Shown here piece by piece: positions 22,338 to 42,671 of a stretch of 64,000 nucleotides of DNA. Position 1 is the first letter of the stretch; every line of letters begins with the position of its first letter. The translations under genes were made by a program, and so were the position numbers. This DNA is from Saprospiraceae bacterium (GTDB lineage Bacteria > Bacteroidota > Bacteroidia > Chitinophagales > Saprospiraceae), in contig JAHDHL010000002.1 of the NCBI GenBank assembly GCA_020631355.1, positions 193,703 to 257,702 of the forward strand, in the 5' to 3' direction. The notes beneath the pieces were generated by a model. That model had not been told where the DNA came from, ran no database searches, and was given only the letters and a program-made list of their open reading frames with translations.

Positions 22338-23924
22338 TCATTTTTCTGATGGAGCAGGGGGTGCCTCCATCTCTTTCCACTCCAAACCTAAGTGTTTTTC
22401 CACGTCTTGCCAAAGTTTCCATTCCTTATCCCCAAAATGGTGGTAGATATGAATCAAATGAGGACGGATATCCTCCCCGGCGTTATCCAGTCTGAATGTA
22501 AGGTCACCTTTGTAGCGCATGGTCGGATGGTAATAGTCCGCTAGAAAATTATAGGATAGTGGCAATGTCTTATGCTTTTCCAAGCCCAATTTCCATACGG
22601 TAGCTATCAGGGTTCCTTGGTCACGAGTCAGCCAATTGGGCAAATCGAATGCAGCCAATGTCCATTGGTGCCACTGGTCGAGAAAAGGCACGGAGTCCTG
22701 GTTGAACAGGAAAACACCACCATTCCAATGTTGGAAATTCGGTTCCTTAACATCCACACCCAAATCATCCTTTATTGCCTTTTGTAAACCATCACTCATA
22801 TGGGCCTTCAGAACCAAACCATCCGCATCTTTCCAGGCCGCCATCCTGGAATCCCAGACCAATCCGGTTTCTTTTTGTGTGTTACGAATCACATAGCCTG
22901 CATCCTTGACAATCTCCTGGGTTGCGGTATCCAGCCAGTACTTGTATTCCTCACTATATACGAAGCCCCTTTTCTCCCAAAACAGCTTGAACTCAAATTC
23001 GGGATCGAATAACCGTTGTCCATTCAGATCCGACCAGGATTGTTGTAATCCATTCCAAACAAAACCCTCCCCTTTCATAAATGAGACAAAGTCAGGATAG
23101 GAATCAATGGCGAGTCCCTTTCGCTTGAAATATCTTTCTGCTTTCCTGAATTGTGATTTAATGTTTTGCTTCGTCAGAAAGCGCATTCCCTTACGGGGAA
23201 TCCTCAACAATCCGCCTTTCAGAATCAATGATGACCAATGATTTTTCCGCCGCTCCAGTACATCTAATCTATCCCGGAGCATGTGTGTATAGTCATGATG
23301 CCTCATTTGTTCCAGAAACCTACTCCTACGGGATTCGAATTCCTGAATGGATTCGTTGAGTTTGTTTTCCATTCTCAATTTATCACCTGTATAGTAGGCT
23401 TCCCATTCCGCATTCGCTTTTTCCCAAGCCTCCAAACGAGGGTGATCATATTGTTTTCCATCCTTTTGGGATGCAAAATGGGACAGCGTTTCATCCAGCT
23501 GTTTCCGTAACCATAGGTTCCTTGCATTCGTTTCGAAATCCAATACTGCCGTAGGACTGAATTGTCTCATCCTACAATGGTCGGTACAGAATGTAATCGG
23601 ACTTTGGTACTGCCTGAATACTCCATCACAGCCCTCATCCAAGGCCAATATATCCGTATCCAGATAGCAGTGTGGTTCTTCTCCCAATTCCACGAATTGG
23701 TGAATACCCGTTTTGAGATAAATGGATGCCTGATGATGGTTGTATTGTAATGGAGTCTTGATGTCTATGATATCATCATGTTCAATATCACATTCGTTCC
23801 TTGAGGTATCGGTCAACACCAGAATCTCCCTTTGGGAAAATCGTCTTAGGAATCCCAAAGCATAATTGAGGGTACGAATGTGTTCGGCACCACCACACAC
23901 GACGAATATGAATTTTCCTTTCAT
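22338..23924 (-). CDS. GT-A fold glycosyltransferase with a large inserted region
   Basis: The 528-residue product has split glycosyltransferase halves. The N-terminal part (1-130) starts with a Rossmann-like strand and has HCYLDTDILALDEG, whose D89-T-D91 is a DXD motif; the C-terminal part (about 393-500) has QHWNGGVFLFNQDS and LTRDQGTLIATVW, as in GT8-like enzymes. Between them is an insert of about 260 residues: a charged helical region (about 140-220), then three spaced Trp/Tyr motifs of similar form, GFVWNGLQQSWSDLNG (about 287), GFVYSEEYKYWLDTAT (about 320) and GLVWDSRMAAWKDADG (about 354). I know no glycosyltransferase with such repeats. Neighbours lie 2-4 bp away on each side. Sugar specificity unknown. 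Confidence 0.72.
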   Translation of the reverse strand: MKGKFIFVVCGGAEHIRTLNYALGFLRRFSQREILVLTDTSRNECDIEHDDIIDIKTPLQYNHHQASIYLKTGIHQFVELGEEPHCYLDTDILALDEGCDGVFRQYQSPITFCTDHCRMRQFSPTAVLDFETNARNLWLRKQLDETLSHFASQKDGKQYDHPRLEAWEKANAEWEAYYTGDKLRMENKLNESIQEFESRRSRFLEQMRHHDYTHMLRDRLDVLERRKNHWSSLILKGGLLRIPRKGMRFLTKQNIKSQFRKAERYFKRKGLAIDSYPDFVSFMKGEGFVWNGLQQSWSDLNGQRLFDPEFEFKLFWEKRGFVYSEEYKYWLDTATQEIVKDAGYVIRNTQKETGLVWDSRMAAWKDADGLVLKAHMSDGLQKAIKDDLGVDVKEPNFQHWNGGVFLFNQDSVPFLDQWHQWTLAAFDLPNWLTRDQGTLIATVWKLGLEKHKTLPLSYNFLADYYHPTMRYKGDLTFRLDNAGEDIRPHLIHIYHHFGDKEWKLWQDVEKHLGLEWKEMEAPPAPSEK

Positions 23925-25289: not shown

Positions 25290-27029
25290 TCACACCCATT
25301 GTTGCCACCAATGTTCCAATACGGCCCATTTCCAAAGCCGCCAGTGGTCATTTTTAGCCACCATTCTCACCAATGCATTCTTCTGTAGGATACCATCTTT
25401 CAGTAATCTTCCATTGGAAAGTGTTTCCACATACCAATTGAAATTCATGTAGTAACGGTCAGGGCCGACAAAGCCTTGTTTCCTACGATTCAGAATGCTT
25501 TTGGGGAATGTATCTTTGATTTGTTCATGCAGCAACCATTTGGTTACCTTAGGATGGTAAAATACAGATTTATCCAAGGAAAACATAAACTCCACGAGTT
25601 CATAATCCAAGAAAGGAACCCGAACCTCCAGGGAATGCGCCATACTTGCCCTGTCAACCTTGGTCAGTACCAATTCACCCATAAATGACCGTATATCCAT
25701 ATATTGGCAATTCCGCAGAGGAGTGGCAAAACCAGGATAGGAAGAAGCATAAAAATCATTTTCCCTTTCGGGAATGAATTCATGATAATCAGGATGCAAT
25801 GCCTGCTTCAATTCCGAATAGCCGTATTGCCCCATTGACATGGAATGTCCATAATGATTCAATAATTCATCCTTACTCCATTGTTTCTGACGTGCTACTT
25901 CCTTTTGCCATTCATAGCCTACGAATATTTCATCTGCACCCTCTCCTGAAAAAACCGTCTTGACTTTTCCGCTAGCCAATCGGCTCACCATATAAGTTGG
26001 AATGATTGAGATATCCGCTATCGGTTCATCATAATGATACATGAGCCGGGGAAGTAGGGAAAGTTGTTCATTACCCACAATGGTCTTGTGTAATTCCAAG
26101 CCTAACTCGTCCGCTACAATTTGTGCATATTGGTCCTCACTCTTTTCCCAATGCTGAAAACCGATGGTGAATGTCTCAGGTGGACGTCCTGATTGTGCCA
26201 TGAAGTAAGCCAATGCAGAGCTATCATAACCACCACTCAGGAATGCTCCGACAGGTACGTCGCTCCTGAGATGATTCTTTACCGAACGACTCAATAATGA
26301 GTGGACTTCTTCGACAGCTTCTTGGTGACTTATCCTTTTGTTATCCGGTTTCAACTGCCAATAGGATTCCATCGACATACTGAATGTATCAAAATCAAAT
26401 TCCAAATAATGGGCAGGCGGCAACTTCCCCACTTCTTTCCAAATGCTTTTGGGAGAGGGAATAAACCGATATGTGAAATAATCACAAACGGAAGAAAAAT
26501 CAACATTCAAATGAGCAGTCCTACATTTTTTTATAGCTTTTATTTCTGATGCAAAAATGAATTGTTCAGCATTATGCAAAAAATATAGCGGCTTGATTCC
26601 AAAACGGTCCCGCACCAATAATAATTTCCTTTTTTCAGCATCCCATATCCCAAAGGCAAACATACCTTTGAGTCGTTGTATCAATTCCTTACCCCAATAT
26701 TTGTATCCCAACAATATGACTTCCGTATCTGTACGGGTCCGGAATTGCATCCCCTCTGATTCGAGGATTTTTCTTAATTCAAGATAATTATATATTTCAC
26801 CATTGAATGTGATATGATAACGTTGTTCCGCATCACACATGGGTTGTTTTCCCTTTTCGGATAAATCCAAGAAAGACAATCGTCGGTGGCCTAATGCTAC
26901 TTGTGCATTTCCACTCATCCAAGTACCGAAACCATCCGGTCCACGATGCGTTAAGGTGTCCCGCATAGCATCGAAGACATCCCTATTTATAGCATTTTTC
27001 CTATCAAGTTGTCCGACTATCCCACACAT
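25290..27029 (-). CDS. asnB: Asparagine synthase (glutamine-hydrolysing) family protein
   Basis: The start was set at ATG 27029 so that Cys2 (MCGIVGQ) becomes the N-terminal nucleophile of the class II glutamine amidotransferase domain; an upstream extension would bury it. The 579-residue protein has the glutaminase domain (FNGEIYNY), the ATP-pyrophosphatase loop SGGYDSS at 265-271, and GEGADEIFVGYEW. The family makes asparagine, but in glycan and natural-product clusters paralogues amidate other carboxylates, for example uronic acids. Its placement between a radical SAM gene and a UbiA gene favours such a tailoring role, which is inference. The upstream gene overlaps by 26 bp. Confidence 0.85.
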   Translation of the reverse strand: MCGIVGQLDRKNAINRDVFDAMRDTLTHRGPDGFGTWMSGNAQVALGHRRLSFLDLSEKGKQPMCDAEQRYHITFNGEIYNYLELRKILESEGMQFRTRTDTEVILLGYKYWGKELIQRLKGMFAFGIWDAEKRKLLLVRDRFGIKPLYFLHNAEQFIFASEIKAIKKCRTAHLNVDFSSVCDYFTYRFIPSPKSIWKEVGKLPPAHYLEFDFDTFSMSMESYWQLKPDNKRISHQEAVEEVHSLLSRSVKNHLRSDVPVGAFLSGGYDSSALAYFMAQSGRPPETFTIGFQHWEKSEDQYAQIVADELGLELHKTIVGNEQLSLLPRLMYHYDEPIADISIIPTYMVSRLASGKVKTVFSGEGADEIFVGYEWQKEVARQKQWSKDELLNHYGHSMSMGQYGYSELKQALHPDYHEFIPERENDFYASSYPGFATPLRNCQYMDIRSFMGELVLTKVDRASMAHSLEVRVPFLDYELVEFMFSLDKSVFYHPKVTKWLLHEQIKDTFPKSILNRRKQGFVGPDRYYMNFNWYVETLSNGRLLKDGILQKNALVRMVAKNDHWRLWKWAVLEHWWQQWV

Positions 27030-28038
27030 CCCTGATGTTTTTAATGATGACTTGAATATCCTCTTTGAGCTTCGGAAATATCCTAGGAAATAGGACAATG
27101 TGAATCAATAAAAAATAGTACCATTCGGTTTTTATCATCACTAATATTAAAATAAAAAAAAGTGGTGCATAAAATTCATAATAATCATTCAGAAAATACC
27201 AGAATTTGAATTTCCATTGTCGCTTGGGTGTTGTGAATAATTTCCATGCACTGAACTTCAGAATGGTCATGGATAAAAAAAGAAACAGGAATAAGGGAAC
27301 AAACCAAAGGGTTTTGGCTAATATCAAATGTAGGCCAATCATGAGTACCAATTCAATCGGAATTAAATAATAATTCAAGATTGGCAACATATTCCTAGGC
27401 CCGACATTCAATACAAAAGTATTCGATTCATTTTCCATATCTGTTTTCCGATCATCTATCTGATGCAGGATGATATTTCTCCCCCCCTTAAAAAGGTATA
27501 AACATATCACGAAAAACAACAACCATTCGTGATGTAATAATTCGGGCTTCATCAATGGAAAAAACAAAAGGATACAAATGGACAAAGGAAGTACATGTCC
27601 ATATCCGACATCCAATATTACCCCAAGAAATGATTTCTCTTTCCATCTAAAAAAAGGCAAGGAATATAATAATAGACACAACACCAAAACAAGCCATAAG
27701 TGAAAGGGCCAACCCCTTATGCCCAAGCCATACCAAGGCATTATTCCCATTAGGAACAACACCAATAACAAAAATGTGATTCCTAGTGTATTCCAGCCTG
27801 ATAGACTGTTTGGTTTACCGGCTTTCTTATCCATTCCCCTATCAAAACAATCATTCAAAGCATAGCCGAACGAGGCTGTAAAAACAAAGGAACACAGGAA
27901 AAGTAACAGATGGTAGGCAACAGTTCCCCACTGGGTAGAAAGCATTAGCATAAGATAGAATACAGGTAACAATGGTGACAATAAATGATGCCACCAAACT
28001 GAAAACCGAAAAAAGGATAACAGGCTATTTCGCTCCAA
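27004..28038 (-). CDS. UbiA-family prenyltransferase
   Basis: A 344-residue polytopic membrane protein with about eight hydrophobic segments. The first Asp-rich motif is NDCFDRGMDKKAGKPNS and the second is HQIDDRKTDMENES, the two Mg-diphosphate sites of UbiA intramembrane prenyltransferases. The family transfers prenyl chains to aromatic or phospho-sugar acceptors; the first motif resembles the decaprenyl-phosphate phosphoribosyltransferase and digeranylgeranylglyceryl-phosphate branches as well as chlorophyll-synthase types, so the acceptor is open. The only suitable start is TTG at 28038. The gene heads the 20-28 kb run and overlaps asnB. It is divergent from an epimerase gene, which also starts with TTG, across 60 bp. 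Confidence 0.8.
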   Translation of the reverse strand: MERNSLLSFFRFSVWWHHLLSPLLPVFYLMLMLSTQWGTVAYHLLLFLCSFVFTASFGYALNDCFDRGMDKKAGKPNSLSGWNTLGITFLLLVLFLMGIMPWYGLGIRGWPFHLWLVLVLCLLLYSLPFFRWKEKSFLGVILDVGYGHVLPLSICILLFFPLMKPELLHHEWLLFFVICLYLFKGGRNIILHQIDDRKTDMENESNTFVLNVGPRNMLPILNYYLIPIELVLMIGLHLILAKTLWFVPLFLFLFLSMTILKFSAWKLFTTPKRQWKFKFWYFLNDYYEFYAPLFFILILVMIKTEWYYFLLIHIVLFPRIFPKLKEDIQVIIKNIRDVWDSRTT

Positions 28039-28098
28039 AATATGCTTTCTTAGTCTGAAAGTGTAAATTAGTATTTTGGTTGGTAAAACAGAACTGGC

Positions 28099-29052
28099 TT
28101 GGACAGAACTTGCTTAATTACGGGTGTAGCGGGTTTTATTGGTTCGCATACAGCACGACTCCTTTTGGAAAAGGGGTATGTCATCTATGGTATTGATGCC
28201 CTGCTTCCCTATTATGATGTAGCCATCAAGCAGCATAACATCAAGGATCTCAGCCAACATCCCAACTTTCATTTCTATCAAGAAAACATCCTCTCATTCC
28301 AATTCGAGCAATTACCCGTCAAACTAGATTATATCATTCATTTGGCGGCGAGTCCGGGAGTCCGCTTTTCTTCCCAACGTACCCAGGAGTATATTGATAA
28401 TAATATCACGGCATCCATTCGTATCCTTGACTATGCCAAGGGACAAGCTTTTAGGAAAATCATTCTGGCTTCCACTTCTTCCATCTATGATGACAAGGGC
28501 GAGCTCCCATATTCCGAACATTCCAATCTCGATCCAAAAGCTGTGTATGGAATCAGTAAACTCTGTATGGAAAGAATCAGCAATATTTACAGACAGGAAC
28601 ATGACCTTCCCATTATGACCTTGCGTTACTTCTCTGTTTACGGGCCAGGGCAAAGACCAGACATGGGCATTCATTTATTTATGGACAAGACCCGTAAGGG
28701 AGAAACCATATCCATCTATGGGGATGGTAACCAAACGAGGGATTTTACTTACATCGAGGATGTGGCACAGGCCAATTGGCAAGCATTGGAATCTGAGACC
28801 TTGCAAGGTATTTATAATATTGCCTCAGGGAGGAGCATTACCATCAACAGTATCCTCGATAAGATATTCAGGGTTGTAGGAAACACCACAACTATTCGAT
28901 ATGTACCCATTCTCAAGGAGGAAAGTCTGCATACCCTAGGAAATATTTCCAAGGCCCGAAAGGATTTGGGTTATGCTCCTAGTACGCATCTCGAAACCGG
29001 ACTCAGAAAACAATGGGAATGGATGGTCGATTCCGAATATAAATTAGGATAA
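28099..29052 (+). CDS. NAD-dependent nucleotide-sugar epimerase/dehydratase
   Basis: The 317-residue extended SDR protein starts with the NAD-binding GVAGFIGS motif (GxxGxxG) after LITG. It has HLAASPGVRFS, the active-site strand STSSIYD, and the catalytic YGISK (Tyr/Lys), followed by LRYFSVYGPGQRPDMG and the TRDFTYIEDVAQAN block that are typical of UDP-glucuronate or UDP-glucose 4-epimerases. It would supply an activated sugar to the neighbouring glycosyltransferases. The start is TTG 28099; no in-frame ATG lies nearby upstream before a stop. The 3' end overlaps the opposing P450 gene by 9 bp. Exact sugar substrate unknown. Confidence 0.82.
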   Translation: MDRTCLITGVAGFIGSHTARLLLEKGYVIYGIDALLPYYDVAIKQHNIKDLSQHPNFHFYQENILSFQFEQLPVKLDYIIHLAASPGVRFSSQRTQEYIDNNITASIRILDYAKGQAFRKIILASTSSIYDDKGELPYSEHSNLDPKAVYGISKLCMERISNIYRQEHDLPIMTLRYFSVYGPGQRPDMGIHLFMDKTRKGETISIYGDGNQTRDFTYIEDVAQANWQALESETLQGIYNIASGRSITINSILDKIFRVVGNTTTIRYVPILKEESLHTLGNISKARKDLGYAPSTHLETGLRKQWEWMVDSEYKLG

Positions 29053-31212
29053 TGCATGTAATGCAAATGCAGCCGTTAATCCGGGTGACCCTCCACAAAA
29101 AATTCGGCTCTTACTACAAAAATAAGGATAGGCTTTCCATTGGAATTCAGCATCGTTAATTTCCGCTAACAATTCCAATTCTATCTTTCTGATGATTCCA
29201 TCATTTTTAGAAACATGCTTCATGATATAAAGTACCATGCTCTTTTTCATGATATTCAATGAGGTATCAGAAATGATTCCCAGGACATCCGTATTAATGA
29301 TATCATATAATTTTCTAAATGACGGAACCCCATTCTCAGCGGCCCTGACGATATGATAATACACAACCAAAATATCGTCATAAAAAAAGAGAGTCATTTC
29401 TTTTCTTTTCTCAATATCCTGTATGAATTGTTTGATGATTTTGTCCGTCTTCTTTTGTTCACCCAAATACATCAAAACATTGGCCGCCACAGCAGGTTCG
29501 GTATCATTATGCTCCAACATATTTAATTCGAATACCTTTGCGCTCACTTTCTCCCAATCCTTTTTCAGAAATTGATTCAATCTGAATTTCCACCATGTTT
29601 TCTTATTCGGAATAACCCATGTCAATATCCTATGCTCATCATTCAAATTAAGATGCAGTATATCCTTATTTTTCAATCTCACTCCATTCTTTTCCAAAAC
29701 AAAGGATGCAATGGCTGTATCATCCACATCCAATGGAACATTCAGATTCGGGGAATCGTGTTGCCAATACCGCCATAAATCATAAGGATTATCCAATTGT
29801 GCTTTCAGAAACATAATACCCTTTTGCATTATCTCATCAACCAAAGGATGCTTAACATCCAATAATGAAAAAAGAATATTACCCTGAATAAATGGTGACG
29901 CGGAGGTATACATCCAACCATTTTCATGAAATGGAAAACCCTCCGGATATTTTTCCAAGGAACGAAATTCCCCATCATCCATTTGGGAACGATGTAGGAA
30001 TAAAATGATATTTTCCAAGGATTTCTCCTTGGAAAATCGGGGTGTTACCGTATTCCCCAAACGGATGTCCATCTGCCTGAATCCACGGACATGGCTAGAG
30101 GGCCTGAACTCAAGGGAGTTTTGTTCAAGATGAATATCAGGGTACTTTTCTAGGAATATTTCCATACCTATACGGGCTTCCAGAAGTGCCAAACGACTCC
30201 CTATACAATGGTGGGGCCCCCAACCGAATGGAATGATTTTTTTCAAATCCCTTTCCATATCAAAATGGCTCGGTTGTTCAAAAACAGCCTCATCCCTATG
30301 TGCTGCCCCCAAACAAACTGCAAGGTTACTTCCCTTAGGTATGACATAACCTTCCACAGGGGTATCCCTTGCTGCAACCCGATGTACAATTTGTGTGGGA
30401 GATACCCGACGCATACATTCCCGAAGTGCTGTCATCATCAGAGTGGGATGTGTTTTCATTTGCTCTCCTAATGCCTCATTGCATTGGATATCGTAAAGGA
30501 AATTACCCATGAGATTCGGAGTGGTCTCATTTCCGCCAACCAATAATATCTTGGTCAATTGAATGAGTTCTTCCTTATTGAATACATATTCTTCCTTTGG
30601 ATGGTGTATCAGTTCACTAATGGCTCCATCCCTGGGTTCCTGATAACAATCCTCGATAAACTGTGCCAGAATCGGTTTCAACCTATCCCAATGCAAAACG
30701 GAATATTCCATATTGTGAATCGATGAATTGGAAACGGCCACATCGGTCCAATTCCTAAGCATGCTACCCAGATGTTCGTACACTCCCAACACGTCCAGTA
30801 TGACCAAGGACGGCAAGGGTGCTGCATAATCAGCAAGGAAATCGAAATGCGTACGTTCATCTATGACTCCCAATAAATCATGGCAAATTTTCCGAATCCG
30901 ACTTTCCCATTCATCTATACGAATCTTATTGAAAGGTCGTCCGATCCCCTCTAGGGCTTTCCTCCGACTGAGATGGACCTTTCCATCACCACCTAATAAA
31001 ACCGGATCGAAAGAAGCATTAATGGAAGAATGAAAATCCTCCGTATTAGCCAGTACCTCCTTGCACGCGGCATAGGAAACAACAAAGTATTGTTGGTGTT
31101 TTTCCAAGTAATGTATCGGTCCGATTTGTTGCAAGGCCCGATAGGCCGGATAAGGATCCGAAAGGAATGCAGTCGAGGTCAAGTCCAAGTCTGAAGTAGG
31201 AAAAGCGCTCAT
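29044..31212 (-). CDS. Cytochrome P450 fused to a terpene-cyclase-like alpha-toroid domain
   Basis: The 722-residue protein has a complete bacterial P450 (about 1-395): I-helix GGNETT at 226-231, ExxR at 265-268 (ECMR), and the heme loop FGWGPHHCIG with Cys336. After a short linker, residues 400-722 form a second, helix-rich domain that starts LFLHRSQMDDGEF and contains WQHDSPNLNVPLDVDDTA, where DVDD at 495-498 matches the DxDD acid motif of class II terpene cyclases. It ends with a Gly-rich CGGSPGLTAAFALHAL. At about 320 residues it is shorter than a full two-domain cyclase. Domain identity beyond the motif is inference. It starts 1 bp after the acyl-CoA ligase gene. Confidence 0.78.
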   Translation of the reverse strand: MSAFPTSDLDLTSTAFLSDPYPAYRALQQIGPIHYLEKHQQYFVVSYAACKEVLANTEDFHSSINASFDPVLLGGDGKVHLSRRKALEGIGRPFNKIRIDEWESRIRKICHDLLGVIDERTHFDFLADYAAPLPSLVILDVLGVYEHLGSMLRNWTDVAVSNSSIHNMEYSVLHWDRLKPILAQFIEDCYQEPRDGAISELIHHPKEEYVFNKEELIQLTKILLVGGNETTPNLMGNFLYDIQCNEALGEQMKTHPTLMMTALRECMRRVSPTQIVHRVAARDTPVEGYVIPKGSNLAVCLGAAHRDEAVFEQPSHFDMERDLKKIIPFGWGPHHCIGSRLALLEARIGMEIFLEKYPDIHLEQNSLEFRPSSHVRGFRQMDIRLGNTVTPRFSKEKSLENIILFLHRSQMDDGEFRSLEKYPEGFPFHENGWMYTSASPFIQGNILFSLLDVKHPLVDEIMQKGIMFLKAQLDNPYDLWRYWQHDSPNLNVPLDVDDTAIASFVLEKNGVRLKNKDILHLNLNDEHRILTWVIPNKKTWWKFRLNQFLKKDWEKVSAKVFELNMLEHNDTEPAVAANVLMYLGEQKKTDKIIKQFIQDIEKRKEMTLFFYDDILVVYYHIVRAAENGVPSFRKLYDIINTDVLGIISDTSLNIMKKSMVLYIMKHVSKNDGIIRKIELELLAEINDAEFQWKAYPYFCSKSRIFCGGSPGLTAAFALHALS

Positions 31213-31213
31213 A

Positions 31214-32752
31214 TCACTTCAGTAATTTTTTCAATACCTTACCTGTTTTGCTCAGAGGTAATTCATTCACAAATTCAATCAATCTCGGATACTTGTACTT
31301 AGCCATGTGTTCCCTGGCATAGGATATGATATCTTCCTCAGTACAATCAGTTTCGGTTTCCCGGATGATAAGCGCCTTGATTTCCTCTCCATATTTCTCA
31401 TCCGCTACGCCAACCACGGCCACCATATTCACAGCAGGATGCTGCATCAATACTTCCTCTACTTCCCTCGGATATATTTTCCATCCTCCACGGATAATCA
31501 TTTCCTTAATCCTATCAATGATATATACATATCCATTCGCATCCATATAAGCCACATCGCCCGAATGCATCCATCCGTTTCTTAATGCCCTGGAAGTAGC
31601 TTCGGGTTGGTTAAGATAGCCTTTCATTACAGAATGTCCACGAAAGACCAATTCCCCCTTTTCCCCGACAGGTACCGGCTGGTCATTCTCATCGAAGATA
31701 TTGACTTCCATCCCCCATACTGCAGGGCCGATGGTTCCTGACTTATTGGACTCAGGATAATAATTGAAGCAGACACAACCGGAGCTTTCTGTCATTCCGA
31801 AGATTTCAGAAATCTGGACTCCGAATTTATTTTCAAATTGTTGTTGTAGGACAGCGGACAATGGTGCGCCTCCAGACACACACAATCTCATGGATTGCCT
31901 GACTTGTTCTATCGTTTTGGAATCACATGGAATATTATTCAACGCCCAATACATTGTGGGTACTCCACAAAAGATAGTAGGTTGTTCTTTTTTCACCCAG
32001 TCCAAAAATGCTTGCGGGCTGAATTTTGAAAGCAGAATGGAAGTATTCCCATTGAGAATGCTCGCATTTAATTGCATGGTATGCGAAAAGATATGGGAAA
32101 TAGGCAGTGCAATGATATTCTTATCTGATTCCGTATATCTCAATTCCCTAACACCTACGGTGGCATTAATCAACAAATTAAAATGGGTCATTTCGGTTCC
32201 TTTGGGCTGGCCTGTGGTACCCGATGTATACATGATTAGTGCTGTGTCTTGTGCAGCAGTATCAGCCAATGGGAAAGGAATATGTTTTTGGGATAGTATG
32301 TGAGACAAATGTAGGGATTCACCCTTATCCTCATTCCAATTCCTATCCAAGCATACCAAATGTTTACAAGTATCTGTTGAAGTGAATCCTTTCTCTCCTC
32401 CTTGAAAAATGGGCATATCTCCCTCGCCCTCATAACAACAATAAGCCTTGGCACCGGAATCTTCCAATAAGGCCGCAATCTCCTGTGGATTCAATAAGGC
32501 ACTGAGTGCAACAGCCACTCCTCCCATTTTCAGAATTCCATAGTAAGACATGACAAACTGTGGATTATTCAAACTTGTCAGGGCTATCTTATCACCCCTC
32601 CCCAGACCCAACTGACGAACCATATAATGGGCAAAGGTGTCAGAAACCTCATCCAGTTCTTTGAAAGTCAGACTAACATCATTCCAGACCAATGCTTTCT
32701 TGTCCGGATATCTCCTTGCTGATTCCCGAAGTATCGTAGCTAAATTCAACAT
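31214..32752 (-). CDS. AMP-forming acyl-CoA synthetase / ligase
   Basis: The 512-residue protein is a full-length adenylate-forming enzyme: P-loop MYTSGTTGQPKGTEMTH, the A5 motif FGMTESSG, the SGDVAYMDANGYVYIIDR block (A7-A8) and the C-terminal lysine motif KTGKVLKKLL. The family activates a carboxylate with ATP and transfers it to CoA; the sequence looks most like long-chain fatty-acid or 4-coumarate type ligases. It heads a two-gene run with the P450 fusion (1 bp gap), suggesting the CoA ester or acyl chain feeds the same pathway as the oxidised product. Substrate cannot be read. ATG 32752 has no Shine-Dalgarno sequence. Confidence 0.86.
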   Translation of the reverse strand: MLNLATILRESARRYPDKKALVWNDVSLTFKELDEVSDTFAHYMVRQLGLGRGDKIALTSLNNPQFVMSYYGILKMGGVAVALSALLNPQEIAALLEDSGAKAYCCYEGEGDMPIFQGGEKGFTSTDTCKHLVCLDRNWNEDKGESLHLSHILSQKHIPFPLADTAAQDTALIMYTSGTTGQPKGTEMTHFNLLINATVGVRELRYTESDKNIIALPISHIFSHTMQLNASILNGNTSILLSKFSPQAFLDWVKKEQPTIFCGVPTMYWALNNIPCDSKTIEQVRQSMRLCVSGGAPLSAVLQQQFENKFGVQISEIFGMTESSGCVCFNYYPESNKSGTIGPAVWGMEVNIFDENDQPVPVGEKGELVFRGHSVMKGYLNQPEATSRALRNGWMHSGDVAYMDANGYVYIIDRIKEMIIRGGWKIYPREVEEVLMQHPAVNMVAVVGVADEKYGEEIKALIIRETETDCTEEDIISYAREHMAKYKYPRLIEFVNELPLSKTGKVLKKLLK

Positions 32753-33040
32753 AAATACCTGTACCTTTTGTAGAGAATTGATTCAGAAATGACTGACAAA
32801 TCCAACCCGTCATCCAAAATGAAGAATTAAAAGCAGTTCTTGATATAAAAGTAACAAAATACCCGACTCAGACCAGAATGATTCTATCGTACCCTGACAT
32901 TATTTTGCATTAAACCCTATTCAAATTGGATGAAAGAATATTACCTTTATTCCCATAGTCTATTCAGATGTAACACTTTCATTCCGATGAGTGTCTTTTG
33001 ACTTCCCCTTCCAAAATATGCATTAGTAAAATTGCGAGAT
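32753..33040. other. Divergent intergenic region between the ligase and TonB-receptor genes
   Basis: 288 bp without a gene. A TACCTTTA at 32942-32949 is a one-mismatch -7-like element for the plus strand, and a TATTTTG reads on the minus strand (rc near 32857). No convincing -33 elements at the expected spacing and no strong hairpin were seen. Confidence 0.35.
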
Positions 33041-35772: not shown

Positions 35773-36819
35773 ATGAGTAAGAAAGAAAGAATCTGGGGTT
35801 TTGATTATGTGCGGGCAATCTTGGCAGTGGTAGCTACCCATTTCCATACGGCATTTTTTGGTATCCGGATGCAGGATTTCCTACACCAACCTACATTCGG
35901 ACCCGATTATTTCCCTAGTACCATCCAGATTGTATTCTTTAATTTTTTCTTTCATTCCATCCCGTCTTTTTTCATGATGTCCCTTTTTTTGATATACCAT
36001 TTTAGGGAACAAAAAGGGATTTTCCAAAAAAGGCTGAATTATTTAGTGCAGCTTTTTTTATTCTGGTTTACGATGCAGAATATTTTATTATTCTTCACTA
36101 AAAGAGATCGTCTCAATTATTTATTTTCCGATTTCAATCTTACCTTACAATGGATTGTTTCTGGTGCCTATTCTGAATTCTGGTTTTTATTTTCCTTGAT
36201 ATCATTGGTTATTTTATTCTGGGGATATCTAATATTACAATCCCATTTTTCTTTTTTCAAAAAACGGAGCACACAGTGGGCCCTATTCATCATTGCCATC
36301 CTATTTGTATTAACCATACCTTATTTCCATTCCAAGGATAATTACCTTATCCCATTGAGTTTCCTTCCTCTTATTTTCATTACTCCCATCATCTATCAAT
36401 TATGGGTAAAAAATAAAATAAATACTAAGTGGATTATAGGATTCGGCATAATATGGTTACTGGGTTCACTATTGGACTGGATTTTAAGAATAACATACAC
36501 CGACCTTGATTATTTATTTATGGTTATACCGATGTTTGCTAGGTTTTCCATATCATTTGGTGCATTAATTATTATTTGTTCCGCTTTATTAATTCCCAAA
36601 AAACCACCCTCATTCATCAGGACATTATCCGATTACGCACTACCTATTTTCTGCGTACACTGGTTCGCACCCTATTGTTTGGAAATCATGGAATATTTGG
36701 TGGAATTAGGAATTAATATTTGGATAGCCGAAGCTATTGTTACTTTATACCGCGTAGCCTTCTCCATAGTCGTAGCCTATTTTGCTAGGAAAGTACCTTA
36801 TCTGAATCGATATTTCTAA
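35773..36819 (+). CDS. Acyltransferase 3 family integral membrane protein
   Basis: The 348-residue protein has about ten hydrophobic segments and the N-terminal FDYVRAILAVVATHFHTAFF signature of the acyltransferase 3 (OafA/YrhL-like) family, with a conserved His in helix 1. Such enzymes O-acylate glycans and glycosylated natural products at the inner membrane. Phe-rich stretches raise the local AT content. It follows the TonB receptor by 8 bp. Its TAA stop overlaps the stop of the convergent PhyH gene by 3-4 bp (CTAA). Acceptor unknown. Confidence 0.82.
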   Translation: MSKKERIWGFDYVRAILAVVATHFHTAFFGIRMQDFLHQPTFGPDYFPSTIQIVFFNFFFHSIPSFFMMSLFLIYHFREQKGIFQKRLNYLVQLFLFWFTMQNILLFFTKRDRLNYLFSDFNLTLQWIVSGAYSEFWFLFSLISLVILFWGYLILQSHFSFFKKRSTQWALFIIAILFVLTIPYFHSKDNYLIPLSFLPLIFITPIIYQLWVKNKINTKWIIGFGIIWLLGSLLDWILRITYTDLDYLFMVIPMFARFSISFGALIIICSALLIPKKPPSFIRTLSDYALPIFCVHWFAPYCLEIMEYLVELGINIWIAEAIVTLYRVAFSIVVAYFARKVPYLNRYF

Positions 36820-37703
36820 AGCAACCCTCGGAGTTCCTTATTCTGATATGCATTCAATAATTCCTGCAATTCCTCTGGTGTCAGCATACCGGGCTTTCTT
36901 AGTAACTTCCTGGGTCTTATCCCCCCTAACATTTCTCCTTTAGTATAATCCTCATAAATCCTATGTGAATTATACGCATTCATGAATTGCACATCAATAG
37001 GAAAGATACCTATTCGTTCATTATCATTTGGCAACTGATACATCATTTGCATCGGTGCGGCTTCATGTGTAATGGCTATGGATGCAACCAATCGATTCTC
37101 ATCACACGAATTGGGAACAGAGCCATGCAAGACCCTGTGGTCCCATAATATGGCTTCGCCAGCTTTGAGCGCTTCCATCCTAAGCAGCGGCACCAAATCC
37201 TCCTTGATGGGTTCGAAAGGACTTTGATACACCTGCATGGGCGTGAATCTTATGGGGTTAAAATCCTTATGACTTCCCGGAATGAATCCGATACCTCCCC
37301 GCTTTACCGGAACATCATCCAATGCCATCCAGAGGGTGGCGGAATGATATCCTTTTTGTTCATCCACGAAGATCCAATCCTGATGAATACCAATCTCACT
37401 TCGTTCCTCTGCTCCTTTCTTGATGATGAAACTTCCTAGAAAAACCTTGTAATCAATGAAACAACGATCCAGTGCCGTAGTTATGATTTCACTTATGGAC
37501 TGCCTAATCCTGTTTCCTTGGCTACTTCCGCACATTTCCACTGAGATGTGTATTCCATTATGGAATGGTAAATCATTTTTCAGATTATCATATAACTGAA
37601 GTAGCGCATTGCGTTCTTCGGTATTCAGGAATTCCATCTTGGTATAACCATCCCTGAGGAACCGTTCCTCGTATTCGTCTTTCCTTAATATCCTCGATTC
37701 CAT
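36816..37703 (-). CDS. Phytanoyl-CoA dioxygenase (PhyH) family protein, copy 1
   Basis: The 295-residue protein is an Fe(II)/2-oxoglutarate dioxygenase of the PhyH type. The metal triad is His107/Asp109 in GIHQDWIF and His193 in LHGS; Arg204 in NRLVAS probably holds 2-oxoglutarate. RGGIGFIPGSHK is the usual strand-turn block. The family hydroxylates CoA esters and many natural-product scaffolds. It lies 9 bp downstream of a second, diverged PhyH gene, so two hydroxylation steps or a heterodimer are possible. Its 3' end overlaps the acyltransferase gene by 4 bp. The C-terminal 50 residues contain RKLLRKPGML, not seen in copy 2. Confidence 0.84.
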   Translation of the reverse strand: MESRILRKDEYEERFLRDGYTKMEFLNTEERNALLQLYDNLKNDLPFHNGIHISVEMCGSSQGNRIRQSISEIITTALDRCFIDYKVFLGSFIIKKGAEERSEIGIHQDWIFVDEQKGYHSATLWMALDDVPVKRGGIGFIPGSHKDFNPIRFTPMQVYQSPFEPIKEDLVPLLRMEALKAGEAILWDHRVLHGSVPNSCDENRLVASIAITHEAAPMQMMYQLPNDNERIGIFPIDVQFMNAYNSHRIYEDYTKGEMLGGIRPRKLLRKPGMLTPEELQELLNAYQNKELRGLL

Positions 37704-37712
37704 GAAATATGA

Positions 37713-38555
37713 TTAGGCGGATGTATATTCCCTTACCAATGACTTCATTTCATCAGCATTGACTGGTTTTTGGTCGTAAGGATAGGATTGTCTGAATCTG
37801 GCATGTTGGCTGGGTCGGGACTGGTAATCGTATACATAGAAGAATTCAGAATCGATTTCGTATTCCTCTACCCTATTGTTTTCCTTATCCAGATAATGAA
37901 AAAGCAACGGGGATGTCTTCCTAGCCACTCCGAAAATCATGGCACAACGCATATCATCGGATCGGTTGGCTTCGGTAGAGTGAATGATATTCCCATCAAA
38001 AATAATGGCCTGTCCTTTTTTCATATCAAAAATGGTACGGTTCTCCTCAATCAAATTCCTCAATTCCTCATCCTGATAATCATAAATGGGTGGCACCATA
38101 CAACTCCTGAAACTCCTTCGATACAGATGACTTCCCTCAAGTACGGAAATAGTACCATTGTGGCGATTGACATCCAACATCGGAATCCAGACGGTATAGC
38201 AGCTATCCTCAACGATATCCACCAGGCTCCAATCCTGATGAAAATCAAATACACCTACTCCTGGCATCTTTACGTTGAATACAGGTTCGATGATTCTACA
38301 TCCATTCAGAAAGGTTTCCAACTTGGGTTGTATGGTCTCCAATAAAAGTTGTTTTACTGCCATTTGATAAACAGGGTCGTGTCTTCTATGGCTACCAAAA
38401 AGCTCTGTATTGGGAATTTCAAAGTCATGGAGTCGGTCAAATTCCTTCTGGACATGATCCACCTCCTCTGCTGCCAGAAAGTCAAAGATGGCATACCCCC
38501 TATCTCTCAACTGCTGGTCCAGCCTATCATTCCTAAGTACCTGTTTTACCTGCAT
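37713..38555 (-). CDS. Phytanoyl-CoA dioxygenase (PhyH) family protein, copy 2
   Basis: The 280-residue protein has the dioxygenase iron site as FDFHQDWSLVD (His106, Asp108) and NIIHSTEANRSDD (His192) with Arg203 nearby, plus HNGTISVLEGSHL. It is clearly related to the following gene in layout but strongly diverged in sequence, so it is not a recent duplicate. A true Shine-Dalgarno-like AGGAG lies about 9-13 bases upstream of the ATG (complement of 38565-38569), rare in this window, and a TATCTTGT (complement of 38578-38585) may be a -7 element, so the PhyH pair may have its own promoter. Substrate unknown. Confidence 0.84.
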   Translation of the reverse strand: MQVKQVLRNDRLDQQLRDRGYAIFDFLAAEEVDHVQKEFDRLHDFEIPNTELFGSHRRHDPVYQMAVKQLLLETIQPKLETFLNGCRIIEPVFNVKMPGVGVFDFHQDWSLVDIVEDSCYTVWIPMLDVNRHNGTISVLEGSHLYRRSFRSCMVPPIYDYQDEELRNLIEENRTIFDMKKGQAIIFDGNIIHSTEANRSDDMRCAMIFGVARKTSPLLFHYLDKENNRVEEYEIDSEFFYVYDYQSRPSQHARFRQSYPYDQKPVNADEMKSLVREYTSA

Positions 38556-38622: not shown

Positions 38623-39846
38623 CTATTCATTCAGGTATTCCAAGTTAAAATCAGAGGCAATCTTAAGCGGGATATAGTATTCGGTACCATTGATGGGTGG
38701 TTCGTGGCCTTGGATATCAAGCGTTGCGAAGCTTGTATCCTTATATTTCATTTCCTCACTCACCCATACATTCAGCATGATGCGATACTGGGTGGGATAG
38801 AAAGTATTCGCAGGAATTTCCCATGTTATCTTTTTCTTTCCCTTTCGGACGGAATCATTCCAATGCAAGGTATTGATGGCAAAAAGACGGGTATCGAAAG
38901 GGTCTATCACGACTAAAGAAATGGCAACATCCTCATTTATATGACCCAATTCCTCATATTCCAATTCCAACAACACGGGCTTATCCCGATACAATGTAGC
39001 AGTCTGCTCCAAGGGATTGGTAATGGTCAACTGATGAATATCAATGAAATGATTCTCGAATACCTCATGCTCCAATGGATGGGGCGTAGATACCTTCTGT
39101 GTTCGTTCATTGGTACTGTTTTCCATTTTCATGACTTCAAGCAGAGGACCTTTCCCCTTAACCTTTCCATTCTCCAACAGCAATACGGTATCTATCCATT
39201 CGCTGAGTTCGCCCAATGAATGACTCACTACGACAAAGCTTTTTCCTTGTTGATTCAATGCGATGACCCTATCCTTGCATTTTTGTCTAAATTCCTTATC
39301 CCCAACAGCTAGCACCTCATCAAAAAGCATGATATCCCGATCCAGATGAGTTGCTTGGGCGAACGCCAAACGAAGAAACATACCGGATGAATAATACTTT
39401 ACGGGCGTATCGATGAATTTCTGTCCAATGCCACTGAAAGCTACAATCTCATCAAATCTTTCGGTTACTTCATTTTCATTAACACCTAATATCTTAGCAT
39501 TGTAATGGATATTCTCCCTCCCTGTCAATTCCGGATGAAAACCTGAGCCTATATCCAATAATGAAGCTACGGTACCGTTGATGGTCAAGTGACCTGAAGT
39601 GGGTGCTGTCACGCCTGCAAGGAGCTGGAGCAAAGTGCTTTTCCCTGCACCATTCTGACCTATTACGCCTAAGGATTCTCCCTTACGCAATTCGAAGGAA
39701 ACATCATGCAATGCCCAAAGTGCATCGGATTCATTTCTTTTTTGAGATACAAAAATGGATCGGATGAATTCATTGATGGACATGCTCTTTTGGTTCAGTA
39801 GATACCGTTTAGATAAATTTTCCGCCTTGATGAGCAATTCCTTCAT
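38623..39846 (-). CDS. Polysaccharide-type ABC transporter ATPase with C-terminal carbohydrate-binding-like domain
   Basis: The 407-residue protein has Walker A GQNGAGKS, the signature YSSGM, and Walker B MLFDEVLAVGD followed by a switch VVSHS. From about residue 255 there is an extra beta-rich domain (IHQLTITNPL ... VWVSEEMKYKD) like the Wzt C-terminal domain, which recognises the terminally modified glycan in O-antigen exporters. The matching ABC-2 permease gene ends 3 bp upstream, so the two form an export complex of Wzm/Wzt or TagGH type. It would move a lipid-linked or glycosylated product across the inner membrane. It is followed by 67 bp and the PhyH pair. Confidence 0.88.
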   Translation of the reverse strand: MKELLIKAENLSKRYLLNQKSMSINEFIRSIFVSQKRNESDALWALHDVSFELRKGESLGVIGQNGAGKSTLLQLLAGVTAPTSGHLTINGTVASLLDIGSGFHPELTGRENIHYNAKILGVNENEVTERFDEIVAFSGIGQKFIDTPVKYYSSGMFLRLAFAQATHLDRDIMLFDEVLAVGDKEFRQKCKDRVIALNQQGKSFVVVSHSLGELSEWIDTVLLLENGKVKGKGPLLEVMKMENSTNERTQKVSTPHPLEHEVFENHFIDIHQLTITNPLEQTATLYRDKPVLLELEYEELGHINEDVAISLVVIDPFDTRLFAINTLHWNDSVRKGKKKITWEIPANTFYPTQYRIMLNVWVSEEMKYKDTSFATLDIQGHEPPINGTEYYIPLKIASDFNLEYLNE

Positions 39847-39849
39847 ATC

Positions 39850-40650
39850 CTAAATATAATCCACAAAATCTTTTTCCACTTGTGCAAAACGTTGCCATCC
39901 TGCAATCATGATGATACATCCGATAGCAATTCCTATCAGAAATAAGACGGATGGTGTTTCGGTTCCCAACATGACCCAACGATAAGCTTCTATGATGCCC
40001 GCCATAGGGTTGAAGTAAATCCAGAAACGATATCTTTCAGGAATGACCTCAGGCGTATAAAATACGGGAGTCAACCAAAATCCAAAGTTGATGATGGTCG
40101 TAATGAAATGGGAAAAATCACGAACCCTGATACTCAACTGACTCGTCCATAGTGCGAGGCCGAATCCCATACAAAAATTCAATATCAGAATAATGGGAAT
40201 GAAAATGACCGTCCATTGAAACGGATGTCCCAGAATGATTTGGATGATAAAAAATATGAGCAATGATATCATGAATTCTACCAAGCCCAACAAACTCTTA
40301 TAAACTGGCAGAACTATCTTGGGAAAATAATTTTTCTTGATAATCTGTGCTTCATGAATGATGGATTGCCCTGCCGAGTTGAGGATATCCATGAAATAAG
40401 CCCAGGCCATTAATCCACATAAAGCCACTAGTGCATAAGGTGCATTCAAAGAGGAAATGGGCATGATGACACTAAAAAAGAAACTATAAATCCCGAGATA
40501 GACCAAGGGTTTCAAGACAGCCCAAAACATCCCTAATGCTGTTTGGGCATATCTGATCTTGAGTTCCCGCCTTACCATGGATACAATCAGGGAACGATAG
40601 GATATTACTTCCCTGAATGATGTGATGATATGCCTCCCCTCATTTTTCAC
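39850..40650 (-). CDS. ABC-2 type permease (Wzm/TagG-like)
   Basis: The 266-residue protein has about six membrane helices and the N-terminal amphipathic segment SMVRRELKIRYAQTALGMFW of ABC-2 polysaccharide and teichoic-acid exporters. Other family blocks are YFMDILNSAGQSIIHEAQI, KKNYFPKIVLPVY and WIYFNPMAGIIEAYRWVML. It pairs with the ATPase gene 3 bp downstream and is 5 bp after a TPR membrane protein. Export substrate is not determined by sequence; neighbouring glycosyltransferases suggest a glycan or glycolipid. Confidence 0.88.
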   Translation of the reverse strand: MKNEGRHIITSFREVISYRSLIVSMVRRELKIRYAQTALGMFWAVLKPLVYLGIYSFFFSVIMPISSLNAPYALVALCGLMAWAYFMDILNSAGQSIIHEAQIIKKNYFPKIVLPVYKSLLGLVEFMISLLIFFIIQIILGHPFQWTVIFIPIILILNFCMGFGLALWTSQLSIRVRDFSHFITTIINFGFWLTPVFYTPEVIPERYRFWIYFNPMAGIIEAYRWVMLGTETPSVLFLIGIAIGCIIMIAGWQRFAQVEKDFVDYI

Positions 40651-40655
40651 TCTAT

Positions 40656-42584
40656 CTATTCGGATAATAAATCCAAGAACTGCTGGCTGACTCCCACCCC
40701 CAAGGATTGGGCCTTACTTACATCCGATCTTGCATTCTCCTTTTGTCCTAATAGGAAATATGCCTTGGCTCTACTAACATAATATCTCCCATTCTCAGGA
40801 TGTTCTTCTATTGCAATGGAAATATAATTGGTACTTTCCTGATAATTCCCTAATCGTTCTTCGATGACTCCTTTCAGGTAATTCATTTCAGGGTCCCGTG
40901 GATAAAAATTGAGGTACTTCTGATAACTATCCGCTGCCTTTTGGAATTCCCCTTGGTTAATATAAATCTTGCCCAAGTTCCGATAGGCATCCAAACTAAA
41001 CAAGCCCATACTTACTGCCTTTTCCAAGTCAGCTATGGCTTCAGTTTCCTTGCCCAGCTTGGCGAGAACACCTCCTCTTGCACCATATCCCCGTTGGTCC
41101 TCAGGGTATTGTACAATGAATTGATTCAAGTTTTTCAATGCCTTATCCAAGTCATCATTCTTGAAAGCATACACTGCACTATTCATTAGGGCTTCTTTCA
41201 GATTGGGATTCAGCTTCAATGCCTTGGCATAATAGTCATTCGCTTTTTCTTCATCCCCCTGATTGTAGTAATACAGACCTAAGTTATTATAACCTATTTC
41301 CTCATTGGGATATTCCTGAATCAATTGCGTGAACAGGGTCTCAGAATTCTTCCAGGTATAAGTCCTTAGGTGGGATAGGCCTACGAATATCAGAATTAAA
41401 ATACCTGTAAGATACAAGGCATACTTCTCCCTTACCCTTGGGGTTACCATCTCCACCACACCCAACACCATTACGACCATACCGAAAAGTGGCAGGTAGG
41501 TATATCTATCCGACATGAAATTCGTACCTGTTACCGGAATCAGTAATATAGGTGACAACATCAGTAGATAAAGTCCCAACCCCAAGTAGATTGTAGTTTG
41601 TTCATTCCCTTTCCAAATGCCCCAGATAAATGTAATCAGAACTAATAGTGGGGATAACAATAAAAGGATGGAATGTTCATCCAAATAAGAATCATACGGA
41701 AAGATGATTGACTGTTTGAATGGCACTACGATATGGCTTGCATAGGCGACTATTTTCAATAGCATGACCCAGATTGCCGTAAGGGTTGCGCCTAAATTGG
41801 ATATAGGAAAGACGGGACTCACTATTTCATTCAATCCTGATAAATCTGCGGTCAAGGTGGCGTATTTGTCCGGAGTAATGGCATAGAATACCAAGGCAGC
41901 CAAAAGTGCCAAAACGGGTATTCCGATAAAAAATCGGTTTCTCCATCCTGACCATTCCTCTTTTTTAAAAAGAAATACCCAAACCAAAACCAAGGGTAAT
42001 GTAACCGCCAAGGCCTTGGAAAGGAATGAACACAAGAACAATAAGACTACCAAGCCCCAACCGAGTACAGGGCTGATTTTGCTATCCAGAATTCGTAGGA
42101 AAACATATACGGCTCCCAGATAGAAACAACCGAACATCGTATCCTCCAATTCTGATGCCCAAGCAATCGATTCCACTTTCAATGGATGGACTGCCCAAAA
42201 CAAGGCTCCAAGGAAAGACCACTGGGTCTTAAATTCCAAATTACTTTTTGACAATAAATTCCTCAATATGGAGAATGCATAAACAGCAGCTACCAAATGA
42301 AAGAGTAGACTGATTGCATGAAAAGCAAAAGGGGACAATCCGAACCATTCATGTATCGTTTTGTATATTATGAATACCAATGGTTTGTAATCCGAACTTC
42401 CAAACTGGAATGAAAAGACGGAACCTATGGTATCCCAATGACCACTCGTCACGATGGTATTCTCCAATATGAGGAATGGATCATCAAAATTGACGAACCC
42501 ATTGGAAAATACAGGGAAGAATGCCAGAATGCACAAGGCCATCATTCCCAATATTGAATATCTTGATCCGATTAGTTTTTCCAT
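40656..42584 (-). CDS. Polytopic membrane protein with C-terminal TPR repeats (TMTC/DUF1736-like)
   Basis: The 642-residue protein has about ten to twelve hydrophobic helices in its first 430 residues. The first periplasmic loop has GFVNFDDPFLILEN, typical of TMTC-like and bacterial GT-C glycosyltransferases, and AVHPLKVESIAWASELED follows. Residues about 440-640 are at least five TPRs (GYNNLGLYYYNQGDEEKANDYY, YRNLGKIYINQGEFQKAADSY). It probably transfers sugar from a polyprenyl donor outside the cytoplasm, or scaffolds such a step. ATG 42584 was chosen; the upstream in-frame TTG at 42599 is less likely. It is co-oriented with, and 5 bp from, the ABC exporter genes, which supports a joint export or assembly role. 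Confidence 0.77.
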   Translation of the reverse strand: MEKLIGSRYSILGMMALCILAFFPVFSNGFVNFDDPFLILENTIVTSGHWDTIGSVFSFQFGSSDYKPLVFIIYKTIHEWFGLSPFAFHAISLLFHLVAAVYAFSILRNLLSKSNLEFKTQWSFLGALFWAVHPLKVESIAWASELEDTMFGCFYLGAVYVFLRILDSKISPVLGWGLVVLLFLCSFLSKALAVTLPLVLVWVFLFKKEEWSGWRNRFFIGIPVLALLAALVFYAITPDKYATLTADLSGLNEIVSPVFPISNLGATLTAIWVMLLKIVAYASHIVVPFKQSIIFPYDSYLDEHSILLLLSPLLVLITFIWGIWKGNEQTTIYLGLGLYLLMLSPILLIPVTGTNFMSDRYTYLPLFGMVVMVLGVVEMVTPRVREKYALYLTGILILIFVGLSHLRTYTWKNSETLFTQLIQEYPNEEIGYNNLGLYYYNQGDEEKANDYYAKALKLNPNLKEALMNSAVYAFKNDDLDKALKNLNQFIVQYPEDQRGYGARGGVLAKLGKETEAIADLEKAVSMGLFSLDAYRNLGKIYINQGEFQKAADSYQKYLNFYPRDPEMNYLKGVIEERLGNYQESTNYISIAIEEHPENGRYYVSRAKAYFLLGQKENARSDVSKAQSLGVGVSQQFLDLLSE

Positions 42585-42671
42585 AACTATGCAGGACAAG
42601 ATACGAAAGCTTTGCTTGTATGGATATTTGTGGCAATAATTTTGTATTTATCCTGTAAAATCCAAACACAT

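Follow-up and report, generated by a model that had tools for sequence, protein, structure and literature searches.

The window analysed here comprises 64,000 nucleotides from a Saprospiraceae bacterium (GCA_020631355.1, contig JAHDHL010000002.1, positions 193,703 to 257,702 of the forward strand). Its frame 29044-31212 on the reverse strand encodes, according to the open reading frame list and its translation, a protein of 722 amino acids (aa) without internal stop, in which a cytochrome P450 is continued by a predicted class II terpene cyclase domain. Judged from sequence and structure models, both domains are complete, with their catalytic residues conserved in one recurring chain. The protein is probably a bifunctional enzyme, which would combine the P450 with a catalytically competent one-domain class II cyclase in a meroterpenoid-like pathway, with a UbiA-type prenyltransferase supplying the substrate. 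Since the fusion recurs in other bacteria, once in reversed order, a real two-step enzyme is likely. The lengths and motifs given for this chain in an earlier note made from the sequence (GGNETT, ExxR, heme Cys336 and DVDDTA at 495-500) were all found again on one chain, with GGNETT starting at 226 and ExxR at 265. The features of the fusion gene are as follows:

30058..31212, minus strand: cytochrome P450 domain, residues 1 to ~385 (Pfam PF00067, E 2.3e-25)
30520..30537, minus strand: I-helix motif GGNETT, residues 226-231, invariant in 6/6 aligned fusions
30409..30420, minus strand: ExxR motif (ECMR), residues 265-268, with E265 and R268 invariant in 6/6 aligned fusions
30205..30207, minus strand: heme-ligand Cys336 in FGWGPHHCIG, invariant in 6/6 aligned fusions
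29047..30057, minus strand: predicted single-toroid class II terpene cyclase (TC-beta) domain, residues 386-722 (337 aa), from profile and model
29713..29730, minus strand: class II acid motif DVDDTA, residues 495-500, with D497 as predicted proton donor
29503..29505, minus strand: Asp570, probable place of the diphosphate-binding Arg380 of the drimenol synthase AsDMS, Asp in 24/25 domains, with the alignment extended by one residue
29380..29382, minus strand: Tyr611, counterpart of the acid-activating Tyr427 of AsDMS, Tyr in 24/25 domains

The two halves of the protein

A profile of six aligned fusions, compared with P450 structures, gave matches over residues ~11-386, the best of which were 4rm4, 5l90 and 5ofq, named CYP109B1, CYP109E1 and CYP109A2 by Foldseek. 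As the heme-binding cysteine, the ExxR motif and the acid-alcohol pair of the I-helix are all present, the P450 half is complete. Over the whole 722 aa, Pfam gave p450 alone at E <=0.1, and thus no reductase or ferredoxin domain. A separate ferredoxin system is proposed as electron source, given this lack of a reductase match. A search of the own genome with the full-length protein returned the protein itself and one further P450-like place, and an Rfam scan of positions 26000-34000 gave no match.

For the C-terminal half, the evidence comes from profiles and from the predicted fold. Searched alone, residues 386-722 remained below every Pfam cut-off. In the first set of relatives, SQHop_cyclase_C was matched by three of the seven rows (best E 2.3e-6), the row of the window not being among them according to its listed matches. 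A seven-row profile, consisting of the domain of the window and six relatives, showed drimenol synthase 9mhs as best match in the Protein Data Bank (PDB) with an E of 2.1e-18 and the fungal cyclase AstC with an E of 7.1e-9, while squalene-hopene cyclase (SHC) was far weaker with an E of 0.0044. With an 18-row profile, drimenol synthase was found at E 4e-17. An AlphaFold2 model of the cyclase half reached a predicted local distance difference test score (pLDDT) of 91.0 and a predicted template modelling score (pTM) of 0.91. Foldseek ranked drimenol synthase first for this model (E 1.4e-9), and the VIA-align comparison with 9mhs resulted in a Z of 28.4 with a root mean square deviation (rmsd) of 2.8 over 284 residues. 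The corresponding values for the cyclase MstE with farnesyl dihydroxybenzoate were a Z of 24.8 and an rmsd of 3.3 over 295 residues; the Actinoplanes protein 6ij1 showed a Z of 25.3 and SHC a Z of 23.0. Toroids other than cyclases (glycosidases and epimerases) reached a Z of at most 18.6 in the VIA-align list, and complement proteins occurred in the Foldseek list.

The C-terminal half is accordingly modelled as the alpha-alpha toroid of a class II cyclase. The earlier note had read this half as class II cyclase-like, had guessed from its length that it contains one alpha-toroid only, and had proposed a structure prediction with comparison to SHC; the predicted fold bears out both points. A full SHC or a two-domain (beta-gamma) labdane cyclase is ruled out, since there is one toroid and the other half of the chain is a P450. 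The same holds true for an N-terminal HAD phosphatase domain of the HAD-TC-beta type, for which Pfam and NCBIfam gave no match in the chain.

The conservation of single residues was counted over 25 aligned domains, the one of the window included. For the numbering of AsDMS, the HMMER alignments print the DLDTT stretch, and the reading of RYY as R425-Y426-Y427 agrees with PMC12365925. D497 aligns with AsDMS D333 and is Asp in 25/25 domains. PMC12365925 describes D333 as the residue which protonates farnesyl diphosphate (FPP) and sits in the FPP-binding pocket, with Y427 activating it, and lists D331A, D331N, D333N and Y427F as inactive variants. By alignment, the DVDD motif, whose location in a pocket the earlier note had made decisive, is thus placed at the proton donor. 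The acid-Tyr pair predicted to be needed for protonation is kept, and the outer residues of the DxDD motif are variable.

The residues of the window at the other AsDMS places, found partly by extension of the alignment, are W532 for Y373, H568 for R378, D570 for R380, F609 for R425 and F610 for Y426, and AsDMS R513 possibly corresponds to K701 or R703. The Y373 place holds Trp in 21, Tyr in 2 and Phe in 2 domains. Arg or Lys occupies the R378 place in 8/25 domains and Asp the R380 place in 24/25, both placings reaching one to three residues beyond the alignment as printed. At the R425 place, Arg or Lys occurs in 4/25 and His in 5/25 domains, while the Y426 place is aromatic in 25/25. In the alignment of the seven-row profile, an Arg of AstC is printed opposite the D570 column. 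This pattern hints at a head group that differs from a free diphosphate, without proving it.

Recurrence of the fusion

In single-sequence searches, the C-terminal domain matched similar separate proteins of ~330-400 aa in other Bacteroidota, with matches in 4 of 148 genomes (own genome included) and none in 8 other genomes of the genus. Phylum-wide, 6 of 395 genomes showed matches, again with the own one, and one of the six was later rejected by alignment. The seven-row profile, run on 395 genomes of the class, matched 29 of them, own genome included; 12 of these matches were partial and 2 weaker still. The first contig scan with the single 722-aa query gave no match, and no relative of the fusion was found in viral contigs.

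The same fusion was present in five genomes (G824, G655, G893, G895 and G892), with identities to the protein of the window of 31-35% over the full length; taken separately, the P450 halves share 33-38% and the cyclase halves 29-32%. Species genomes of GTDB were then scanned with the six fusions; since the best 80 of 458 relatives were kept, the numbers of fusions are lower bounds. Nine of these best 80 carried the cyclase domain, eight in the order P450-cyclase and one reversed. The eight comprise the five genomes above, recognised by the length of their contigs, and three new metagenome-assembled genomes (MAGs) assigned to Bacteroidia, Fluviicola and Bacteroidetes with 32-34% identity in the best segment. 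In total, at least nine forward fusions, including the window, and at least one reversed fusion exist. The latter, in a Calditrichia MAG (locus L086), comprises a cyclase at residues 17-362 and a P450 at 404-782 in one frame of 787 aa. The search for the fusion in other genomes, which the earlier note had suggested, thus led to eight further Bacteroidota and one Calditrichia with opposite order.

A tree of 21 cyclase domains placed six forward fusions on one side of a branch with a support of 92/91, and the split group reached 100/99. From this tree, a single origin of the forward fusion in Bacteroidota is likely though unproven; the reversed order in Calditrichia speaks for a second one. In three pairs among L073-L075, the ratio of nonsynonymous to synonymous substitution rates (dN/dS) of the cyclase half was 0.15-0.25, so that this half is under purifying selection there; in the P450 half, dS was saturated.

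Besides the fusions, a separate P450 gene directly precedes the cyclase gene on the same strand in five loci (L009, L056, L057, L058 and L059), three of these P450s being confirmed by Pfam and two by an own hidden Markov model (HMM). The separate P450s at L057:10429-11607 and L059:8130-9410 contain TSIENVAS in the I-helix region in place of the GGNETT of the fusions, so that the usual Thr is missing, and keep the ExxR motif and the heme cysteine; they may be other than ordinary monooxygenases.

The locus of the reversed fusion (L086:3427-21893) contains two more pairs of toroid and P450 as separate genes, the P450 directly following the toroid each time. These additional toroids pass the cut-off of SQHop_cyclase_C and are matched by the own domain HMM in fragments only. 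Furthermore, this locus carries one Stf0 sulfotransferase, two sulfotransferase-like genes below cut-off, UbiA, MBOAT, an AMP ligase and a halogenase-like FAD enzyme.

Several relatives were left out of the counts. L016/L021 had entered at E 5.5e-4, could not be aligned and lacked the motifs. L006/L010, L007/L011, L027/L055 and L071/L076 were excluded as fragments at contig ends or broken frames, and L035/L062 as an apparent near copy of L033/L060, the fragment and near-copy exclusions applying to the sets of 18, 21, 24 and 25 rows. Weak partial matches (L072 in G599 with E 1.7e-6, L049 and L050) were not counted, nor were the twelve partial matches L037-L048 in frames of 468-535 aa, which were treated as a different group. 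Among seven of the twelve, five carry NDNDDT and two NDADDT/DDADDT, and by eye their N-termini are signal-like; they are possibly a separate secreted toroid family.

Gene neighbourhood and proposed function

The genes around the fusion were compared by running HMMs of the neighbour families on 24 cyclase loci and on 71 control loci with a related P450 and no such cyclase. The window was counted over its 64 kb, and some of the other loci end at contig ends. In the window, the following neighbours were identified:

31214..32752, minus strand: acyl-CoA/AMP ligase gene (Pfam AMP-binding, E 9.7e-90), directly upstream of the fusion with 1 base between the frames
28099..29052, plus strand: NAD-dependent sugar epimerase/dehydratase gene (Pfam), a related gene occurring in 5/17 loci
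27004..28038, minus strand: UbiA-type membrane prenyltransferase gene (Pfam UbiA, 39.6 bits, cut-off 34.2)
25290..27098, minus strand: asparagine-synthase-type amidotransferase gene (Pfam), family in 13/24 loci vs 1/71 controls
22338..23924, minus strand: gene of a 528-aa protein with no Pfam or NCBIfam match at E <=0.1, family in 13/24 loci vs 0/71 controls
36816..38555, minus strand: two PhyH-type dioxygenase genes (Pfam PhyH), 36816-37703 and 37713-38555
38623..40650, minus strand: ABC exporter ATPase and permease genes (Pfam ABC_tran and ABC2_membrane)

UbiA was found in 20 of the 24 cyclase loci and in none of the 71 controls, and residues N62, D63, D66, D70, D196 and D200 were invariant in the 13/13 aligned UbiA neighbours. 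In 8/9 forward-fusion loci, UbiA directly follows the fusion gene on its downstream side; in the window, the epimerase gene on the opposite strand intervenes. The permease family of the ABC exporter, which we take from its sequence appearance to be of the polysaccharide-export (Wzt/Wzm) type, occurred in 16/24 loci compared to 0/71 controls, and PhyH in 10/24 compared to 1/71. A membrane family represented by 40656-42599 in the window, for which Pfam shows TPR-type repeats only and which presumably is DUF1736/TMTC, was present in 10/24 loci and 0/71 controls. A P450, fused or separate, accompanied the cyclase in 16/24 loci, whereas all controls carry one by choice. Altogether, the contrast of the neighbours is an association and no independent test.

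Further genes were observed beside relatives of the cyclase. A family of ~280-320 aa lies next to cyclase or P450 at L009:10610-11452, L056:12387-13343 and L058:4813-5757, with weaker members at L057:14000-14845 and L052:2329-3252. Four of the five members were scanned and none reached a Pfam cut-off, and the five-row profile found no PDB chain at E <=10. The suspected ABBA-type prenyltransferase is therefore unsupported by the Pfam scan of four members and by the PDB profile search. At L019:11074-13335, a fusion of a polyketide synthase-type acyltransferase domain with a P450 (754 aa) lies near a one-toroid cyclase gene, with one gene between, and UbiA. At L020:289-2759, a one-toroid cyclase relative directly follows a frame which by eye resembles a radical S-adenosylmethionine protein, with two ABC ATPase-related frames beyond; this is perhaps a peptide-modification cluster.

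For the protein of the window, the following course is proposed. The C-terminal toroid would bind the isoprenoid chain, D497, polarised by Y611, would protonate the terminal double bond and thereby start ring closure, and the P450, with electrons from the separate ferredoxin system, would then hydroxylate or otherwise oxidise the ring product, the reverse order being possible. With less weight, the substrate could be a lipid or aromatic compound prenylated by the neighbouring UbiA enzyme instead of free FPP or geranylgeranyl diphosphate (GGPP), in analogy to the merosterol pathway, and further decoration of the product could follow, with export through the ABC transporter encoded in this gene block.

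A number of observations weigh against this interpretation. The outer residues of the acid motif vary, D495 being kept in 21/25 domains (Glu in 3, Cys in 1) and D498 in 15/25. At least one fusion, the reversed one of Calditrichia, is without the full set of residues, the Y611 place being Asn and the D570 place Ala. AstC is gone from the matches of the 18-row profile at E <=1. In the tree, the branch of the forward fusions is not starred, and no starred set contains the domain of the window. The UbiA contrast overstates the independence of the loci, because 13 of the 24 counted loci were in the training of the profile (7/11 loci outside of it showed UbiA), several loci are homologous blocks of genes, and the control loci were drawn from other groups. 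UbiA was not found in L008, L020, L058 and L063, the last three being stretches of 12 kb, and among solved structures its profile matched weakly to digeranylgeranylglyceryl phosphate (DGGGP) synthase, chlorophyll synthase and decaprenyl-phosphate phosphoribosyltransferase, which comprise three activities. The full-length model showed a mean pLDDT of 77 and a pTM of 0.54, lowest in the P450 half, and is too weak to place the two pockets relative to each other or to judge any channelling. Finally, PMC12365925 reports AsDMS R380A as active, and K701 and R703, which could replace AsDMS R513 in diphosphate binding, are kept in 9/9 forward fusions.

The last two points touch the question of the head group. 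The toroid could instead cyclise FPP or GGPP as free prenyl diphosphates, the P450 would oxidise the drimane- or labdane-type product, and UbiA would attach the finished terpenoid elsewhere. The closest solved relatives are indeed drimenol synthases, and K701/R703 together with the invariably aromatic place of Y426 could help to hold a diphosphate. Since most of the arginines by which AsDMS holds the diphosphate appear to lack conservation, as described above for the R378, R425 and R380 places, and a HAD phosphatase match is missing from the chain, a free diphosphate, such as the GGPP which the earlier note had suggested beside squalene-type compounds, is somewhat less likely as substrate, and we consider this alternative rather unlikely.

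The variation of the acid motif could also be explained by a toroid which has become a non-catalytic isoprenoid-binding module and offers the P450 a lipid or an acyclic prenyl chain, as in the vestigial cyclase considered in the earlier note. DxDD is partly lost in some relatives (E-T-D-T-N in L060, L061 and L063, C-T-D-D in L058), and in the reversed fusion the Tyr is missing. However, the acid-Tyr pair would not have to persist in a module that only binds, and with the middle Asp in 25/25 and the Tyr in 24/25 domains a vestigial cyclase is disfavoured, which makes this explanation improbable. That two adjacent genes were joined by chance, in the assembly or through a lost stop codon, to which the five loci with adjacent separate genes might point, is refuted for all practical purposes: the frame is located well inside a contig of 411 kb (genome of 6.16 Mb in 142 contigs), and the fusion is no artefact, because the same two-domain frame exists in eight further Bacteroidota assemblies at about one third identity.

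Starting from the bifunctional enzyme as preferred explanation, it can tentatively be proposed that Bacteroidota and Calditrichota share undescribed cyclised and oxidised prenyl lipids or meroterpenoids. These may be made by a module of UbiA, one-domain class II cyclase and P450 and put on the cell surface or passed through it together with glycans. Fusion of cyclase and P450 may have occurred on two or more occasions, in opposite orders, for direct transfer of the product between the active sites. The diversity of terpenes arises mostly from cyclases followed by P450s, which normally are separate proteins. A fusion of class II cyclase and P450 in two opposite orders would point to a coupling of the two steps and might offer a ready scaffold for the engineering of oxidised terpenoids. 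In addition, the recurring UbiA-cyclase-P450 module is marked in gene blocks of Bacteroidota with surface-glycan-like genes.

Comparison with known systems

One-toroid class II cyclases are already known, also fused to a HAD phosphatase. A fusion of P450 and class II cyclase was not found in the literature as judged by titles and the openings of abstracts, which is weak evidence of absence.

On the side of the P450, the CYP109-type enzymes (4rm4, 5l90 and 5ofq) are nearest to the N-terminal half by profile and fold. Their chains comprise ~400 aa with the P450 only, whereas the protein of the window adds the cyclase half. The albaflavenone synthase CYP170 (NF051859) resembles the fusion in that one chain is credited with both P450 and terpene synthase activity. 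The second activity of CYP170 is of class I and located inside the P450 fold. NF051859 matched the protein of the window over residues 263-346 only, with 17.5 bits at a cut-off of 700.

On the side of the cyclase, the HAD-TC-beta enzymes AsDMS (PDB 9mhs, 9m7d-f) and fungal AstC (22ty) share with the fusion a TC-beta toroid with acid Asp and activating Tyr and an N-terminal second enzyme. In AsDMS and AstC this partner is a HAD phosphatase and in the window a P450, and most of the diphosphate arginines of AsDMS appear to lack conservation in the family of the window. The discoverers of the HAD-TC-beta enzymes considered a fusion of once separate genes (PMC9128629). According to PMC12365925, the two pockets of AsDMS lie back to back in the monomer, and its authors propose channelling across the dimer.

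MstE (PDB 6sbb-6sbg), a monodomain class II cyclase, consists of a single toroid like the cyclase half of the window, the two sharing 12% identity in the structural alignment. The titles of its structures name farnesyl and geranylgeranyl dihydroxybenzoate as ligands. MstE is not known to be fused to a P450, and we take it to be the SHC-like cyclase of the merosterol pathway and its source to be a cyanobacterium. According to PMC5618424, two P450s occur in this pathway together with an SHC-like cyclase and a UbiA-like prenyltransferase. In the window, a single toroid and a neighbouring UbiA gene were found, and a UbiA-type prenylated aromatic would be the substrate of a cyclase like MstE.

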